Shown piece by piece: positions 3,526 through 64,000 of a stretch of DNA of 64,000 nucleotides (its first letter is position 1; every line of letters begins with the position of its first letter). Source of the DNA: Opitutaceae bacterium (GTDB lineage Bacteria; Verrucomicrobiota; Verrucomicrobiia; Opitutales; Opitutaceae); contig JAGYIG010000017.1 in the NCBI GenBank assembly GCA_018402455.1, positions 1 through 64,000 on the forward strand, written 5' to 3'. The position numbers and the translations under genes were made by a program. The notes under the pieces were generated by a model. That model was not told the origin of the DNA. It did not search any database and worked only from the letters and a program-made list of their open reading frames with translations.

Positions 3526-4235
3526 CAGGACGGTGGCGCGGGCGGGCGATGGCCAAACAAGGCGGTGCCGACGCGAACTTGCGTGCTGCCGGCGGCGATG
3601 GCGGCGTCCAGATCACCGGTCATGCCCATGGACAACGTGTCGAGCGGGACCCCAAATTGCGCCCGCAGGGCATCGCGGCAGGACCGCAGGTTGGCGAACG
3701 TGCGCTGCGCGACGGCCGGGTCGCCCGACAGCGGCGCAATGGTCATGAGACCGTCGACCTGCAGGTGGGGCAGCGATAAGGCGACTTCGAGCAGGGCCGG
3801 GGCCGCGTCGAGATCGGCCCCGAATTTGGCGGGGTCGTGGCCGGCGTTGATCTGGAGCAGGACGGCCAGCTTGCGCCCGGCGGCGTCGGCCGCGGTGTTG
3901 AGTTTCTGGAGGAGCTTCCCGCTGTCCACACTCTGGACGCGATCGAAGTGGGCGGCGGCGAGTCGGGCCTTGTTGGACTGCAAGTGCCCGATGAGCTCCC
4001 AACGCAAGGGGGCGTCGACCAAGGCCTTCTTGTCCACGGCCTCTTGCACGCGATTCTCTCCCACGCTGGCCAAACCAAAACGCGCTGCAAATTCAGGGGC
4101 CCACGCGCCGTGGGTTTTGGTCACCGCCAACAGCGACACTTCCGCCGAGTCCCGGCCGGAACGCTCACAGGCCGCGGCGATTTGGGCCAATACCGCCTCG
4201 GCATTAGCAGCAAAGGTGGAATAGTCGGGGATCAT
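3525..4235 (-). CDS. yggS: YggS/PLPBP-family pyridoxal phosphate homeostasis protein
   Basis: The product is a 236-residue fold-type III PLP-binding protein that buffers pyridoxal 5'-phosphate in the cytoplasm and has no known catalytic activity. Family marks are LLAVTKTHG (the PLP lysine, about residue 40), GENRVQEA, WELIGHLQSNKA, VQSVDS, the FGA segment of HDPAKFGAD, GLMTIAPLSGD and the phosphate-binding SMGMTGDLDAAIAAGSTQVRVGT. Length and motif order match the family. Its stop overlaps the sulfatase start by one base, so the two are probably translated together. The divergent LysR gene begins 68 bases away. Confidence 0.93.
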   Translation of the reverse strand: MIPDYSTFAANAEAVLAQIAAACERSGRDSAEVSLLAVTKTHGAWAPEFAARFGLASVGENRVQEAVDKKALVDAPLRWELIGHLQSNKARLAAAHFDRVQSVDSGKLLQKLNTAADAAGRKLAVLLQINAGHDPAKFGADLDAAPALLEVALSLPHLQVDGLMTIAPLSGDPAVAQRTFANLRSCRDALRAQFGVPLDTLSMGMTGDLDAAIAAGSTQVRVGTALFGHRPPAPPS

Positions 4236-4303
4236 GCAGATTGAATAATAAGTTGCGCTACGATAAGAATTGTTTATACCTGTTTTATTCCGCTCAGCCT
4301 CTT
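4236..4303 (+). promoter_or_regulatory. AT-rich divergent promoter region between yggS and the LysR gene
   Basis: This short intergenic stretch is much richer in A/T than its surroundings. TTGCGC at 4253-4258 and TATACC at 4275-4280 are spaced by 16 bases and could be the -35 and -10 of the LysR gene. ATAA and TTAT halves lie around GAATTG at about 4263-4277. LysR-type proteins usually bind T-N11-A sites in such divergent regions, so autoregulation and control of yggS and the sulfatase are plausible. This is inference from position and composition only. Confidence 0.35.
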
Positions 4304-5230
4304 ATGCAAATCGAGAACTTCAAAGTCTTCGCTGACCTAGTCGAAACCAAGAGTTTTTCCAAATCGGCAAAGATCAATGGTATCACGCAATCGGCGGTCA
4401 GCCAACAGGCCCGGGCGATGGAGAAGCATTTCAAGACGCTGTTGATCGATCGCAGTCAGAAGCAGTTTCAACTCACGCGGGAGGGTCAGGCGGTTTACGA
4501 AACGGCAAAGGAGGTCCTGCACAGTTACGACAAGCTGTTGTCCGAGTTGCAGGAGATGAAAAAGGTGATCAGCGGGACGATCCGGATCGCCACGATTTAT
4601 TCCATCGGGCTCCACGAGCTGCCTCCCTACATCAAGCGGTTCCTGCACGATTATCCGTCTGTCAATGTGCGGGTTGAATACCGTCGGTCCAATTTGGTCT
4701 ATGAGGATATCCTGCACAACTCGGTCGATTTTGGCCTGGTGGCGTTTCCCCTCAAGCACCGTCAGATTGAGGCGGTGCCTTTTCGGGAGGATCAGTTGGT
4801 GCTGATCACCCACCCTGAGCACCCGCTGGCCCGACGCGGCACCCAGGTGCAATTGAGCGAGATGGGGGGGTTGAAGTTTATTGGATTCGATCCGGACATT
4901 CCCACCCGCAAGGCGGTGGATCAAATTTTCCGCGACAACAAGATAGAGATCGAGCCGGTGATGGAGTTCGACAATATTGAGACGGTGAAGCGGGCGGTGG
5001 AGATTGATCACGGAGTGGCCATCGTGCCGCAGGCGACCGTGCAACGGGAAGCCCAACAGGGCTCGTTGCGGATGTTGCCGTTCAAGGAAAAGAATTTCAC
5101 CCGCCCGTTAGCGATTCTTCACCGGAAGGGGCGGGTGCTCACCCCGGCCATGCGCAAGTTCATCGACACCCTGAGCTTGGACCTCAGTGGCACCTTGAAC
5201 GATAAATCGCCGCGTCGACCCGAACTTTGA
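4304..5230 (+). CDS. LysR-type transcriptional regulator
   Basis: The product is a 308-residue LysR-family DNA-binding regulator. The N-terminal winged helix-turn-helix (about residues 1-60) contains ADLVETKSFSKSAKINGITQSAVSQQ and the following wing helix. From about residue 90 the periplasmic-binding-protein-like effector domain begins with GTIRIATIYSIGLHELP. It contains YRRSNLVYEDIL, VDFGLVAFP and ETVKRAVEIDHGVAIVP, the usual landmarks of the two subdomains. The effector cannot be read from sequence. The ATG at 4304 is chosen because it places the HTH at the family-typical position; an upstream frame to 4241 adds an unlikely extension. It is divergent from yggS. Confidence 0.92.
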   Translation: MQIENFKVFADLVETKSFSKSAKINGITQSAVSQQARAMEKHFKTLLIDRSQKQFQLTREGQAVYETAKEVLHSYDKLLSELQEMKKVISGTIRIATIYSIGLHELPPYIKRFLHDYPSVNVRVEYRRSNLVYEDILHNSVDFGLVAFPLKHRQIEAVPFREDQLVLITHPEHPLARRGTQVQLSEMGGLKFIGFDPDIPTRKAVDQIFRDNKIEIEPVMEFDNIETVKRAVEIDHGVAIVPQATVQREAQQGSLRMLPFKEKNFTRPLAILHRKGRVLTPAMRKFIDTLSLDLSGTLNDKSPRRPEL

Positions 5231-5289
5231 GTCCCGCGTTTTTTTTGTGGGCATAAATTGGCCGCGGGGTGGCTCCCAGTTGTAACGCC

Positions 5290-6783
5290 ATGCCGTTTTT
5301 CCTTTCGATTGCCTATTTCTCGATCCTCTTGGGGCTGACGCTTTATGGCGCCCACCGGCTAAAAATGCTGGTCTTGTATTGGCGGGCGATGCGGCGACCC
5401 GCCGCCCCCGATCCGACTTGGGACCGCACCCCGGAAGTGTGCGTGCAGTTGCCACTGTTCAACGAATCCCTGGTCGTCGAGGCACTGCTTGAAGCCGTCA
5501 CCGCGATTCAGTGGCCGGCGGATCGTTGGCACATTCAGATCCTGGATGATTCCACCGACGACACGCCGGCCCTCATTGAACGTTGGCTGCAGGCCCACCC
5601 GGCTGCCGCGGCCCGGGTTACGTATGTGCGGCGGCCGCAGCGGGAGGGTTACAAAGCCGGGGCGTTGAAGTTTGGCATGGAGCTGACCTCGGCAGAATTC
5701 TTGGCGATCTTCGATGCGGACTTTCGCCCGGAGCCTGATTTTCTGCACAAGCTGATGCCTCACTTTGCGGCTGATGATGTGGCGGTGGTGCAAGCGCGTT
5801 GGGAGTTTGCCAACCGGAAACAAAGCCTGCTGACCCGTTTTCAAGCGGTGTTTCTGGATGCCCATTTTGTGGTCGAGCAAACCGCGCGGGCGGCGGCCGG
5901 GCTCTTTTTCAATTTCAATGGCACCGCGGGCATTTGGCGGCGCACCGCGCTGGAGGATGCGGGCGGGTGGACCAGTGACACCGTGACGGAAGATCTGGAC
6001 GCCAGTTACCGCGCTCAACTGCGGGGGTGGCGGCTGGTGTATCTCGATCGTTATGTGGTCCCGTCGGAATTACCGGAGAACCTGATCGCTTTCAAATCGC
6101 AGCAACGGCGATGGACGAAAGGAGGCATCCAAGTCGCCCGCAAGATGCTGGGGCGGGTCATGGCCTCCCGGTTGCCCGCCCGGGTGAAACGGGAAGCTTG
6201 GTGGCACCTGACCATTGGGGTCGTGCACCCGTTGCTCGTCTCGTTCTCCCTGCTGTTTTTGCCGTATCTGTGGTTTGCCGCGGATCGGCTGGGCGCATGG
6301 TGGTATCTGGCCAATCCGGCCATCGTGCTGCTCGCCGGTGGAGCCCCGGTCGCCTTCTACGTGGCGGGTCAATATTTTCAACGGCGGGCATGGCGGGAGG
6401 GCCTGGGCTGGTTGCTGGCCTCGCCGCTGTTGTTGTCCTTTGGTCTGGCGCTGAGCGTGACGCTTTGCGCGGCCTTCCTCGAAGGACTTTTTTCCAATGG
6501 CGGTGAATTTGTGCGCACGCCCAAAGGAGGGCACCAAGTCCGATCGGGCGGACTGCTGACCCGCTTCCGCAGCCGGACCTTTTTCGCCGCGATCACGGCG
6601 ATCGAAGTTGGCCTGGGGCTGGTGCTCCTCAATGGCGCGTTTCAGTTTGCGGGCAGCGGCGCTCCGGAGGTGGCCGTTGCTTTGGGTTTGAAAGGCGCGG
6701 GATTCTTGGTCGTCGCCGGACTTTCTTCCGGCGATCTCTGGCCCAGTTTTTGGCGTCGGGCGCCGACCATGCCGGCTGCTTGA
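5290..6783 (+). CDS. Family 2 glycosyltransferase, cellulose-synthase-like, membrane
   Basis: The product is a 497-residue processive-type GT2 enzyme similar to bacterial cellulose/glucomannan synthase-like proteins. The order is: N-terminal membrane helix (residues 3-20), DDSTDD at 86-91, DAD at 142-144, TED at 233-235 and QQRRW at 271-275 (the D, DxD, TED, QxxRW set). Four to five membrane helices follow in the C-terminal 200 residues. It should use a nucleotide sugar at the inner membrane. No PilZ domain or bcs-type partner gene is adjacent, so the polymer or glycolipid product is unknown. A GTG at 5269 in frame is an alternative start; 5290 places the first helix at the N-terminus. TlpA-like follows 70 bases downstream. 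Confidence 0.9.
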   Translation: MPFFLSIAYFSILLGLTLYGAHRLKMLVLYWRAMRRPAAPDPTWDRTPEVCVQLPLFNESLVVEALLEAVTAIQWPADRWHIQILDDSTDDTPALIERWLQAHPAAAARVTYVRRPQREGYKAGALKFGMELTSAEFLAIFDADFRPEPDFLHKLMPHFAADDVAVVQARWEFANRKQSLLTRFQAVFLDAHFVVEQTARAAAGLFFNFNGTAGIWRRTALEDAGGWTSDTVTEDLDASYRAQLRGWRLVYLDRYVVPSELPENLIAFKSQQRRWTKGGIQVARKMLGRVMASRLPARVKREAWWHLTIGVVHPLLVSFSLLFLPYLWFAADRLGAWWYLANPAIVLLAGGAPVAFYVAGQYFQRRAWREGLGWLLASPLLLSFGLALSVTLCAAFLEGLFSNGGEFVRTPKGGHQVRSGGLLTRFRSRTFFAAITAIEVGLGLVLLNGAFQFAGSGAPEVAVALGLKGAGFLVVAGLSSGDLWPSFWRRAPTMPAA

Positions 6784-25854: not shown

Positions 25855-26937
25855 TCAGCTCGAGGGCACGGGCACCTGACGGATGCTGGTGGCGAGGTGG
25901 CGTTCGGCCCGCCGCAGGACATTTTGGGCACCGTTTTCCGCGCCCAGCGCCTGCTCAATTTTTTTGATCGCAAGGGTGGGGCGACCGATGTGGCACACGG
26001 GTTCACCCGGTTTCACCGCGGGGAGGGTGGTCATGCCGAGGATGATACCGTCAATCGGAGAGACCAGCACGTTCTGCTCCTCGCCCATCAGCGAGGAGTT
26101 GGAGGCGATCTCCTGACCCGCTCGCACGATCTGTCCCGGGGCGACATGAAAGCGGAGAATGCCCCCCACCATGGCCCGCACCCACGTCGTCCGGTTCACG
26201 CGAGTCTGGTAGGTGGGACGCGTGGCGGTTCCTTTGAGCATGCCCAGTTCGATCAGCACATTACGCACGCCGCGCACCCCGAACTGAACGATGGCGGGTT
26301 CGATCTTCCAAGGCTCGCCCGCCTCCACGCAGATCGTCGGACAGCCCGCCGCGCACGCCTCCCGTCGGAAGGATCCCTCGGGCCCCGCCCCGCTGATCAG
26401 CAGCTCGGCGCCAAAGGCCTCGGCAATGCGGCGAATGCGGGGGTCGGAGAGCTTGGCGCGGATGTTGGGGTAGTTGGTCCGCTGGATGGCGGCGGTGTGC
26501 AGGTCGATGCCGTAGTCGCAGCGGCGGACCACATTCTCAAAGAAAGCGTGGGCCACCCGCGCGGCCAAACTGCCCTTGGGATTGCCGGGGAAACTCCGAT
26601 TCAAGTCCCGGCGATCGGGTAGGTAGCGCTCGTTGGCCTCGAAGCCGAAAACGTTGACCACCGGAACCAAAATGAGGGCACCGCGGGCGAGCTGCAGCGA
26701 ATCGTTGAACAGCAGATCATGGATCACCCCCACCCCGTTGAGCTCATCCCCGTGAATGGCCGCGGTCACAAAGATCGTGGGTCCCGGCCGCTTGGCCCGG
26801 ATCACGCGCAGGTGAATGGAGACGTCGTCTCCGAGGTAGGTCTCACTAACCTTCAGACGGATGTCCGCCTGCTGGCCGGTGGCCACGGTTCGTCCCGCTA
26901 TGGTGAAGCGGCGTCGGGTAGGGGGGGGCGTTGCCAT
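25855..26937 (-). CDS. Succinylglutamate desuccinylase/aspartoacylase family protein
   Basis: The product is a 360-residue zinc carboxypeptidase-fold hydrolase. Zinc ligands are H62 and E65 in AAIHGDELNG and H147 in YGIDLHTA; RDLNRSFPG carries substrate-binding residues. The C-terminal 100 residues form a barrel-sandwich-like domain (VRAGQEIASN, SPIDGIILGM). In this genomic setting, with a RimK ligase and retropepsin-like protein, such enzymes are thought to hydrolyse or process the amide or peptide made by the ligase. Its ATG overlaps the RimK stop by one base (TAATG). Confidence 0.92.
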   Translation of the reverse strand: MATPPPTRRRFTIAGRTVATGQQADIRLKVSETYLGDDVSIHLRVIRAKRPGPTIFVTAAIHGDELNGVGVIHDLLFNDSLQLARGALILVPVVNVFGFEANERYLPDRRDLNRSFPGNPKGSLAARVAHAFFENVVRRCDYGIDLHTAAIQRTNYPNIRAKLSDPRIRRIAEAFGAELLISGAGPEGSFRREACAAGCPTICVEAGEPWKIEPAIVQFGVRGVRNVLIELGMLKGTATRPTYQTRVNRTTWVRAMVGGILRFHVAPGQIVRAGQEIASNSSLMGEEQNVLVSPIDGIILGMTTLPAVKPGEPVCHIGRPTLAIKKIEQALGAENGAQNVLRRAERHLATSIRQVPVPSS

Positions 26938-28121
26938 TAAGCGGGAGGCGGCGGCGCGACTTTCCGCTTCGGCCGGCGGCGCGCGTTGAGATCGGGCACG
27001 AGGTTTTGCAGCGCCGATTTGACGCCGTAGCAGACCAGCAGATCACCGGCCAGGATGGGCCGATCATTGCGCGGATTCGGGATGACGATGCCGCCCCGCT
27101 GAATGCTCAGAATGACAATGTCCTTTTCCCGCAGTCCCGAGTCTTTCACGCTCTTGCCGACAAATTCCGAGTCGGGTCCGACGGGGAGTTCGGCTACTTG
27201 GTAGCCCCGGGCCAAGGTGAGTCGCTGGCGGATGTCGAAGTCTTCAAAGCGGACCTGATCCTCGAGGTGTTTGATGATATCACCGGCGATATCGAGCCCG
27301 GTGGCGGTTTCAATCCCCTCCAGCCCGGGGGAAGAATTCACCTCCATGATTTGTGGTCCGTCGGTGCCTTCAAGCATGTCAACGCCCGCCACCCGCAGGC
27401 CGAGGATGTGCGCGGCCCGCACGGCCGTCGCTTCGAATTCGGGGGAAAGGGTCACGGCTTCGGTGGTCCCGCCGCGGTGGACGTTGCTCCGGAACTCGGT
27501 GCCGACGGCACTGCGCCGCATGGCCGCAACAACGCGATCGCCAATGACAAAAGCCCGCAGGTCCTTGCCCTTCGATTCGGCCACAAATTTCTGGATGATG
27601 ACCTGCTGCCTGGTGCTCTGCAGGGTTTCAATGATCGCCTCCGCGACCTTGGTGGTTTCGGCCAGAATGACGCCGATGCCCTGCGTGCCCTCCAACAGCT
27701 TGATGACGACCGGCGCGCCGCCGACCCGTTCGATGGCCCCGAGGATGCTCTTGCGGTCGCGCACAAAAGCGGTGGCCGGCATTCCCAGCTTGTAGCGACT
27801 CAGGACCTGCAGGGAGCGGAGTTTGTCGCGGGAAATGGTGATGGCGTGCGAGCTGTTGAGCGTGAAGGTGCCCATCTGCTCAAACTGCCGCACCACGGCG
27901 GTGCCATAGAAAGTCACCGAAGAGCCAATGCGCGGAATCACGGCATCATAGGAACTCAGGGGCTTCCCCTTGTAGTCGATGGAGGGGCCTTCCGTATCGA
28001 GATGGATCCCCATTCTCATGACGTTGAGCCCGATGATCTTGTGGCCCCGTTTCTGCGCCGCCTCCTTCAGCCGACGAGAGGAGTAGTTCTTGGGCTCGCG
28101 AGTGAGCAGGGCGATCTTCAT
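26937..28121 (-). CDS. rimK: RimK-family ATP-grasp ligase fused to a TrkA-C (RCK_C) domain
   Basis: The product is a 394-residue protein. Residues 1-300 are a RimK-type alpha-L-glutamate ligase: MKIALLTREPKNYSSRRL, ISRDKLRSLQVLSRYKLGMP, GGAPVVIKLLEGTQGIGVIL (ATP-grasp loop), QKFVAESKGKDLRAFVIGD and the metal-binding IMEVNSSPGLEGIE. Residues from about 310 form a TrkA_C/RCK_C-like domain: AELPVGPDSEFVGKSVKD, IVILSIQRGG, GDLLVCYGV. That domain binds nucleotides or small ligands in K+ channels, so it may regulate the ligase. The start overlaps the retropepsin stop (ATGA). Confidence 0.92.
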   Translation of the reverse strand: MKIALLTREPKNYSSRRLKEAAQKRGHKIIGLNVMRMGIHLDTEGPSIDYKGKPLSSYDAVIPRIGSSVTFYGTAVVRQFEQMGTFTLNSSHAITISRDKLRSLQVLSRYKLGMPATAFVRDRKSILGAIERVGGAPVVIKLLEGTQGIGVILAETTKVAEAIIETLQSTRQQVIIQKFVAESKGKDLRAFVIGDRVVAAMRRSAVGTEFRSNVHRGGTTEAVTLSPEFEATAVRAAHILGLRVAGVDMLEGTDGPQIMEVNSSPGLEGIETATGLDIAGDIIKHLEDQVRFEDFDIRQRLTLARGYQVAELPVGPDSEFVGKSVKDSGLREKDIVILSIQRGGIVIPNPRNDRPILAGDLLVCYGVKSALQNLVPDLNARRRPKRKVAPPPPA

Positions 28122-28567
28122 GGGACTTTCTTTTTGAGGGTCTTCTTGCGCGTCAGGTAGGTGCGCCCGGCATCGACGATGTAGTGGGGAGCCAGGGCGG
28201 TGCGCCCGATCAGCATGCGGCAGAGCATGTCTTCGCGCCGCACCAAGGTAAACTCGACCAGCTTGCGCCGACCACCGAGTTCCAGCGTCGTGGCCACCAC
28301 ATAGCGGGTTTCCCGTTCGCCGTTGCTGGATTTGATGACGGTGGTGCGAACAATATCCGCCGTGATCCACTTGCGGCGTCGGCGGTGTTGGTTGCTCAAC
28401 ACCACGTCGAAACGGATTTTGCGACCGGGCAACAACTCGACCTGATCCACGTCCAGCGCGGAGGTTTTGGCGCCGGTATCGATTTTGGCGCGCAGTTTGG
28501 GGATGTGCCAATCGGGGAGAGCAACCAGCTCGCGCCAGCCGACGGTTGTTTTAGAGACCAGACTCAT
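28118..28567 (-). CDS. Retropepsin-like aspartic protease (ATP-dependent zinc protease/RimB-like family)
   Basis: The product is a 149-residue protein. KIDTGAKTSALD at 28-39 holds the catalytic D30-T31-G32 triad of retropepsins. VEFTLVRREDMLCRMLIGRTAL contains the LIGR-type motif of this family (position about 110-131). Members are encoded with RimK-like ligases and are predicted to cut or process the ligase products. It is the first gene of the three-gene unit. ATG 28567 is used because it gives the usual MSLVSKTTVGWRE start; the upstream 14 codons are not conserved-looking. Confidence 0.88.
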   Translation of the reverse strand: MSLVSKTTVGWRELVALPDWHIPKLRAKIDTGAKTSALDVDQVELLPGRKIRFDVVLSNQHRRRRKWITADIVRTTVIKSSNGERETRYVVATTLELGGRRKLVEFTLVRREDMLCRMLIGRTALAPHYIVDAGRTYLTRKKTLKKKVP

Positions 28568-28795
28568 GCAAGGGATCGGGTGGGTTCGATCTGATATCGG
28601 TGGAGTCAACGAGACGGCGGGATTTTAAGCAAGTGCCGTCGAAAAGAATGCCGGCCCGGAGTCGCGACTGACCCCTCGCCGGCCCCCGCGGTCTCGCCCG
28701 GGTGGTTCGGATCGATCTATCGCCTCCCCGTGAATGCCCGGGGGCCGGATCCATGCTCGCGTCTTCGAGCGGAGAGCGACACGTTCGCCGGTCCG

Positions 28796-62402: not shown

Positions 62403-62792
62403 ATGGGAAAGCTCATGACGTCTGCCGCCTATCTGCCGCTATTGATTCAAGTCGTGCTCGCCCTTGGGGTGGGTCTTACGATCCTGTTGGTAAATCACCT
62501 CGCGGGTCAACGGGTGCGGCAAAAGAGTGCCATCAAGGACACCCCCTATGAGTGCGGGGTCAAAGGGGAAGGCATCGTCCACACCCGGTTCTCGGTGAAG
62601 TTCTATGTCACCGCGATGCTTTTTATCCTCTTCGATATCGAGGTCGTATTTCTGATCCCGTGGACCTTTGTCTACCGCGATTTTCTGGCCAATAACATCT
62701 CCATCCTTTCACCGATGATGTTCTTTCTTTTCGTGCTCGTGTTGGGGCTCGCCTACGAGATCAAAAAAGGCGCCTTGGATTGGGAGAAATAA
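62403..62792 (+). CDS. nuoA: NADH-quinone oxidoreductase subunit A
   Basis: The product is a 129-residue membrane subunit with three helices. KDTPYECGVKGEGIVHTRFS carries the ECG segment that contacts the quinone site. VKFYVTAMLFILFDIEVVFL and WTFVYRDFL are diagnostic. It belongs to complex I. No nuoB-N genes follow; the next gene is the EIIA/DAC fusion, so this copy is separated from the rest of the complex genes. Confidence 0.93.
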   Translation: MGKLMTSAAYLPLLIQVVLALGVGLTILLVNHLAGQRVRQKSAIKDTPYECGVKGEGIVHTRFSVKFYVTAMLFILFDIEVVFLIPWTFVYRDFLANNISILSPMMFFLFVLVLGLAYEIKKGALDWEK

Positions 62793-62828: not shown

Positions 62829-64000
62829 ATGCGGCTCGAAAAACTCATCGCCCGGAGCCGTATCGTGGAATTGCGCGGGACCGATATGAAGTCGGTGCTG
62901 AGCGAGATGCTAGACTGCTGCAGCCAGCGCTTCCCCGACCTGAAAAAGGAACCGCTGTTGCGCGGGCTGTTGTCCCGCGAATCGACGATGACCACCTACC
63001 TCGGATTCGGGGTATCCCTGCCTCATGTGCGCGCGAAACTGGGCCGCCGCTATTTGATGGCGATCGGCCGCAGCCGTGCAGGGGTGATGATGGACGGAGG
63101 GGCCGACGAAAGGTCCAACCTCGTGATCATGCTGCTTGCCGATGAGCGCTCCCGAGACTACCTGCAGGTCTTGGCTTCGCTGGCGCGCTTGGTCAAGGAG
63201 CCCGAGCTGGTGCGGGGATTGGTCGAGGCCGATGACGTCGATCAACTCTTTGCCCGCCTCATGGCGGGGCTCAGTGGGATGCAGGTCCGGCGGATCCCGA
63301 CCAAGCAGAACAAAATGAATCGCCTGATGGTGCGGGAGGCGGAGCGCGTGGCGAAGGGCGCGGACTGCGACGCGATCATTGTCATGGGCGATACGTTTAC
63401 GGGCGGGATCGATGTGACCCGATGGACGCCGAAGATGAAATCCATCCTCGTGACCAACAACGCGCCGGATGGGTCGGATGTGTTCACCACCTTCGCCGAG
63501 GTCATCCAGGTGCGGTCGTTTTCCCCACAACGGCTGGCGCAAGTGCGAAGCGCCATTCTGGTGGCCCTGACGCGCGGCATCATTTCCTTCACGGATCGTT
63601 TGTGTTGCATCGGTGGGGTGCTCGGCAGCAACCAATTCGACACCGTCGGAGTGGTGGATGTGGAACGGGAGTTCCAGACCCTGCTCACCGGTCAAACCGA
63701 CCTCCTGCCCGATGATGTGAAGCCGGAAGTATTTGAGCGGGTGATTGCGGTGGCGACCGAATTGGGCGTCGAGGGTCGCGAAGGCAAGCCGGTGGGCTGC
63801 CTCTTTGTGGTGGGAGGATCGGCCCAAGTGGAGAAATACGTGAAGCCCCTGGTGATGAATCCCTTCTTCGGCTACAAAGACGAAGATCGGAACATCCTGA
63901 ACCCCTTCATGGACGAGACCGTGAAAGAGTTCTCCACGATTGACGGCGCCTTCGTGATCAAAGGCAACGGGGTGGTGACCTCGGCGGGCAGTTTGATTCA
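62829..64000 (+). CDS. EIIA / PK_C-like / DisA_N diadenylate cyclase fusion (runs off the window)
   Basis: A continuous frame of 390 codons is open to the last base. Residues 1-150 are a fructose-type PTS EIIA domain with the phospho-acceptor His66 in GVSLPHVRAK. Residues about 155-285 resemble the pyruvate-kinase C-terminal fold (DCDAIIVMGDTFTGGIDVTR, VIQVRSFSPQRLAQVRSAIL). From about 300 a DisA_N (DAC) domain begins, with GKPVGCLFVVGG and the catalytic DGA at 372-374; the RHR motif lies beyond the window. DAC domains make c-di-AMP. PK_C-like plus DAC recalls archaeal DacZ. Addition of EIIA suggests control by PTS phosphorylation. The ATG at 62829 is preceded by a C-only tract. Confidence 0.85.
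   Translation, partial: MRLEKLIARSRIVELRGTDMKSVLSEMLDCCSQRFPDLKKEPLLRGLLSRESTMTTYLGFGVSLPHVRAKLGRRYLMAIGRSRAGVMMDGGADERSNLVIMLLADERSRDYLQVLASLARLVKEPELVRGLVEADDVDQLFARLMAGLSGMQVRRIPTKQNKMNRLMVREAERVAKGADCDAIIVMGDTFTGGIDVTRWTPKMKSILVTNNAPDGSDVFTTFAEVIQVRSFSPQRLAQVRSAILVALTRGIISFTDRLCCIGGVLGSNQFDTVGVVDVEREFQTLLTGQTDLLPDDVKPEVFERVIAVATELGVEGREGKPVGCLFVVGGSAQVEKYVKPLVMNPFFGYKDEDRNILNPFMDETVKEFSTIDGAFVIKGNGVVTSAGSLI

Follow-up and report, generated by a model that had tools for sequence, protein, structure and literature searches.

For many families of DAC proteins, the signals that set diadenylate cyclase activity have yet to be established. The enzymes CdaA, CdaS and DisA share a DAC fold with a DGA motif and a second motif of the GxRHR type, have a SEE motif, and carry membrane-helix or DNA-binding partner domains. 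In CdaA the later motifs read GxRHRxA and (V/I)SEE (PMC7288161). Haloarchaeal DacZ proteins (NF041371) have a domain resembling the C-terminal domain of pyruvate kinase (PK_C) before the DAC domain, and a GxRHxAA motif. Supplied with manganese, the DacZ of Haloferax volcanii synthesizes c-di-AMP in vitro, and its gene is in an operon with mscS2 (PMC6741144). DAC domain architectures were reviewed by Galperin in 2023 (J Bacteriol 205:e0002323, as cited in PMC12974146).

A second described system that bears on the locus reported here is EIIA-Ntr (PtsN), a stand-alone protein of a regulatory phosphotransferase system (PTS) that works without a sugar permease. In enterobacteria, K+ uptake is among the targets of EIIA-Ntr (through TrkA and KdpD), and in many bacteria K+ is under the control of c-di-AMP. 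We analyzed a 64,000-nucleotide stretch of DNA from an Opitutaceae bacterium (contig JAGYIG010000017.1, positions 1 to 64,000; hereafter the window), at the end of which is a gene that combines parts of these systems: an EIIA domain, a DacZ_P domain and a DAC domain in one protein.

Results

The cyclase gene is intact and extends beyond the window. It is on the forward strand, at contig 62829-64187, and encodes 452 amino acids; the domains and motifs placed within it and the neighboring nuoA are on the same strand. The part within the window is 62829..64000, where the frame is open from 62829 to 63998 (390 residues up to the window end). A preliminary description, made from the window alone, had allowed for a frame break past its edge. 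The contig extends 2,947 bases past the window and the cyclase frame continues unbroken to a stop at 64187, ruling out a gene that is truncated or frame-broken beyond the edge.

The protein contains three Pfam domains, each above its curated cut-off and with a match far stronger than chance would give. PTS_EIIA_2 (PF00359) matched residues 15-144 (E 8.8e-17, 61.9 bits versus a cut-off of 27) of an EIIA domain that spans residues 1-150 (62829..63278), as the preliminary description had proposed; the predicted phosphoacceptor, His66 (codon 63024..63026), is within the sequence LPHVR. DacZ_P (PF21755) matched residues 163-284 (63315..63680; E 4.6e-19, 68.8 versus 27.4 bits), and DAC (PF02457) matched residues 313-438 (63765..64000, on to contig 64142; E 7.2e-20, 71.2 versus 27 bits). 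The DAC domain has a DGA motif at residues 372-374 (63942..63950) and a GSRH motif at residues 404-407 (contig 64038-64049, beyond the window). The translated frame places His66 and DGA where they had been reported.

The predicted folds agree with these assignments. We used an AlphaFold2 model of a 90%-identical ortholog (35 sequences; pLDDT 79.6), with a pTM of 0.58, at which the orientation of the domains relative to one another is unreliable. Residues 1-150 of the model matched EIIA-Ntr (1a6j; Z 20.8, rmsd 2.0 over 147 residues), residues 158-282 matched the C-terminal domain of pyruvate kinase (5ws9 residues 345-471; Z 13.3, rmsd 3.0 over 120 residues), and residues 284-446 matched DisA and CdaA (Z about 14-15). 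The middle domain had been described as PK_C-like. That likeness holds for the predicted fold and comes from the predicted structure alone; the proposed family, PF02887 (PK_C), gave no Pfam match, and the domain is a member of DacZ_P.

The protein is related to, and distinct from, each of the described systems. The haloarchaeal DacZ model NF041371 aligned to residues 237-439 (2.5e-34) with 118.8 bits, below its cut-off of 430, so the protein is not a member of that family, and haloarchaeal DacZ has no EIIA domain. Similarly, its EIIA domain is most like EIIA-Ntr in fold and has the active-site histidine in a similar motif, but it is fused to the cyclase and is not a member of the PtsN family (TIGR01419; 36.9 bits, far below the cut-off of 138.7). 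Based on these results, the best explanation of the gene is that it encodes a soluble diadenylate cyclase of the DacZ type to which an EIIA domain has been joined at the N terminus, the identity given in the preliminary description, and that the enzyme is probably catalytically active.

The residues expected to be important in both the EIIA and the DAC domains are conserved. Near-full-length relatives were found at 52-93% identity, and the nearest named records are from Opitutaceae bacteria (Verrucomicrobiota). In 105 full-length relatives, Glu51, Thr55, Thr56, Gly59, Gly61, Pro65, His66 and Arg68 of the EIIA domain never change, and neither do Asp372, Gly373, Arg406 and His407 of the DAC domain. 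The mean frequency of the majority residue was 0.86 in the active loop of the EIIA domain (residues 50-73), compared to 0.70 for the whole EIIA domain.

The tripartite architecture is an orthologous family, adjoining nuoA, across the order to which the window belongs. Of 195 genomes of the phylum, 35 gave a DacZ_P match, and 32 of these belong to this order. The remaining three are two genomes of family f22 (G035 and G160), with the full EIIA-DacZ_P-DAC architecture, and one of family f36 (G114), with DacZ_P-DAC and no EIIA. In G160, the cyclase gene is followed by ptsI (EI) on the other strand and preceded by a gene encoding a Zn-ribbon protein that carries EIIA and by an rlmN-like gene (the latter assigned by eye); the Zn-ribbon EIIA protein, the EIIA-cyclase and ptsI are all encoded inside 5.5 kb (L119:278-1120 and 3955-5499). 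DacZ_P-DAC proteins without EIIA are encoded at loci L118 and L121. At L121 (2250-4524), the short cyclase gene is followed by a gene for a DUF2254 membrane protein, and the same genome (G173) has a second cyclase that does carry EIIA.

The genome of the window encodes the general PTS proteins, and the cyclase is its only detected EIIA_2 protein. There is one HPr (His15 region GIHARPA, Ser46 region GKSIMG) and one EI, with a TSH site, and a profile search of the genome for PF00359 found the cyclase only. No match was found to PTS_EIIC (PF02378) or EIIA-man (PF03610), in keeping with the preliminary description, which had looked to HPr and EI without a sugar permease. These absences, which cover the EIIA_2, EIIA-man and PF02378 EIIC families, are provisional since the assembly is 91% complete (100 contigs). 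In a survey of 87 genomes of the order, DAC was found in 78, HPr in 73, EI in 69 and EIIA_2 in 71, and EIIA_2 was confined to the cyclase in 44 of those 71. The 44 include the single-contig genomes G198 and G220, each with a single EI and a single HPr. The genome of the window also has a complete PgpH-type phosphodiesterase (7TMR-HDED, 7TM and HD domains). Scanning the window against Rfam at gathering thresholds, a search that covers the ydaO c-di-AMP riboswitch, gave no match.

Loss of His66 tended to accompany loss of EI and HPr. We read column 66 in orthologs across the order survey, leaving out short DAC paralogs without EIIA (G173b, G231 and G243c), CdaA-type DACs (L128-L130) and one gene cut by a contig end (G204). 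Where EI and HPr were both present, His66 was kept in 49 genomes and lost in eight; where both were absent, it was kept in three and lost in six of nine, counting loss of the residue or of the whole EIIA domain. Where one of the two was missing, His66 was kept in six and lost in two. The difference between genomes with neither protein (6/9 lost) and genomes with both (8/57 lost) had a Fisher p of 0.0019, a value that ignores kinship. On the tree there were six changes of His state and three of PTS state. With only two to three independent pairs among them, the correlation loses significance once descent is considered. The direction of the co-loss is suggestive in that it fits phosphotransfer to His66; with so few phylogenetically independent pairs, we do not use it as proof of function.

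The two kinds of loss differed in what remained of the EIIA domain. In five of the six losses without EI and HPr, the EIIA domain was gone (four times in family f71, and in G227), and in the sixth (G221) it was degenerate. The cyclases that lost EIIA (loci L142, L171, L140, L173 and L189) are in small genomes of 0.8-0.9 Mb (G213, G226, G237, G250 and G227). The eight losses in genomes with EI and HPr were replacements of the histidine, by Tyr in five genomes of family f55 and by Ser or Cys in three genomes of family f3, the latter confined to one genus. All five sampled f55 genomes (G197, G218, G229, G241 and G253; loci L163, L152, L151, L141 and L148) have Tyr66 in an otherwise intact EIIA motif. 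Tyr66 is also found in two genomes of family f73 (G240 and G252), elsewhere on the tree. Since two PTS-bearing lineages lack the histidine, the EIIA fold can persist without phosphotransfer to residue 66.

The cyclase gene is next to nuoA at most of the near loci. In the window, nuoA (NADH-quinone oxidoreductase chain 3; 62403..62792; Pfam Oxidored_q4, 3.2e-30) ends 36 bases upstream of the cyclase gene, in the place of the mscS2 association of H. volcanii dacZ. It is upstream of the cyclase at 75 of 80 near loci and is absent from just one locus having more than 700 bases upstream. In the window and at loci L003-L082, nuoA is by the cyclase with no other nuo genes alongside, and many members from other families of the order have a nuoA match as well. 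Respiration and c-di-AMP synthesis might be linked, or the two genes might only share transcription.

In connection with c-di-AMP control of K+ and turgor, the preliminary description had mentioned two other genes in the window. The RimK-TrkA_C fusion is real, with TrkA_C at residues 439-503, a domain type known as a c-di-AMP receptor (PMC7288161); we saw no link between this gene and the cyclase. It is in a cluster at 25855-28609 with a gene for an AstE/AspA-type hydrolase and a small open reading frame for a retropepsin-like/ATP-dependent zinc protease, the last assigned by eye. The reported MscS gene was not found among the open reading frames scanned, which cover part of the window.

Discussion

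We propose that phosphotransfer from EI to HPr to His66 tunes c-di-AMP synthesis, and that a minimal PTS ends at the EIIA domain; we put the probability of this reading at roughly 60%. Phosphoenolpyruvate (PEP) would phosphorylate EI, EI would phosphorylate HPr at His15, and HPr would pass the phosphate to the cyclase at His66. The phosphorylation state of this residue would then be relayed via the PK_C-like DacZ_P domain to the DAC domains, which have to pair to join two ATP, and would alter their rate of c-di-AMP synthesis. The PgpH-type phosphodiesterase would degrade the product.

Several features of the sequences favor this proposal: three domains above their Pfam cut-offs with matching folds, a conserved active loop with invariant His66 and Arg68, one EI and one HPr in a genome in which the cyclase is the sole EIIA_2 protein found, and the same architecture adjoining ptsI in a separate lineage (G160). 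Against it are the two lineages that have EI and HPr but lost the histidine, and the three genomes that kept the histidine but have neither protein. Control of c-di-AMP synthesis by the PTS, as raised in the preliminary description, is still the most economical inference, although the lineages in which His66 was lost and EI and HPr were kept complicate it. HPr could also have other uses, for example through phosphorylation at Ser46.

We think it very improbable that the DAC domain is degenerate. The preliminary description had anticipated an RHR motif past base 64000. The RH is there, but the full motif is not: the protein reads GSRHAA at residues 404-409, with Ala as the third residue, and the position of (V/I)SEE reads VSAS, so neither of these motifs of CdaA- and DisA-type cyclases is present in full. 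Taken alone, these changes could mark an inactive enzyme. However, the third Arg is likewise missing from two annotated haloarchaeal DacZ proteins, whose motif is GTRHHAA, and the DacZ of H. volcanii makes c-di-AMP in vitro (PMC6741144), indicating that GSRHAA is a DacZ trait and not a sign of inactivity. Absence of RHR is therefore too strict a basis for rejecting a cyclase, and we dropped the reading that the enzyme is inactive because RHR is missing. In addition, G404, S425 and S427, like the four constant DAC residues noted above, are unchanged among the 105 relatives, and the cyclase is the sole DAC match for most genomes of the order.

The EIIA domain might be mainly structural or ligand-binding, with phosphorylation of His66 unimportant and with DacZ_P sensing a metabolite that sets cyclase activity. 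The retention of the fold with Tyr66 in f55, where EI and HPr are present, and in two f73 genomes would fit such a role, as would the cyclases at L118 and L121, in which EIIA is dispensable, and the binding of fructose-1,6-bisphosphate by the PK_C fold in pyruvate kinases (PMC6741144). Nonetheless, invariance of His66, Arg68 and the surrounding loop down to 52% identity is beyond purely structural need, and EI and HPr are retained in a genome whose one EIIA_2 match is the cyclase, making a pseudo-EIIA unlikely in our view. It seems more doubtful still that the domain acts outward in the manner of EIIA-Ntr, its unphosphorylated form regulating other proteins, such as those of K+ transport or kinases; the fusion would then unite this regulator and c-di-AMP synthesis, with the cyclase not its target. 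EIIA-Ntr proteins are its nearest solved folds, PtsN is among its best NCBIfam matches (though below cut-off), and TrkA and KdpD are targets of EIIA-Ntr in enterobacteria; but fusion to an enzyme usually means control in cis, and no conserved partner gene is alongside except nuoA and core genes.

The architecture itself may already be catalogued. Our search of openly licensed papers turned up no diadenylate cyclase that is fused to EIIA or controlled by the PTS; the EIIA-DacZ_P-DAC combination is reportedly one that Galperin may well list. The additions made here would then be the genome context, in which the cyclase has the sole EIIA_2 domain found, and the survey of His66.

Phosphotransfer to His66 would make the cyclase an enzyme with its likely input built in: a domain phosphorylated on histidine by a known relay, in genomes where few other tasks of that relay are detected. 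More tentatively, and at somewhat less than even odds, the PTS in much of the order could be a dedicated input to a second messenger: with EI and HPr present and no EIIA_2 partner found other than the cyclase, the relay from PEP would end in c-di-AMP. One protein would then merge EIIA-Ntr and c-di-AMP, which elsewhere are separate regulators of K+, and since both act on K+, the fusion might bring together two routes that lead to one physiological outcome. If phosphotransfer to His66 does tune the cyclase, carbon and energy status, in the form of PEP, would set the level of c-di-AMP, and this would explain why EI and HPr are retained in a genome with no detected PTS sugar permease.
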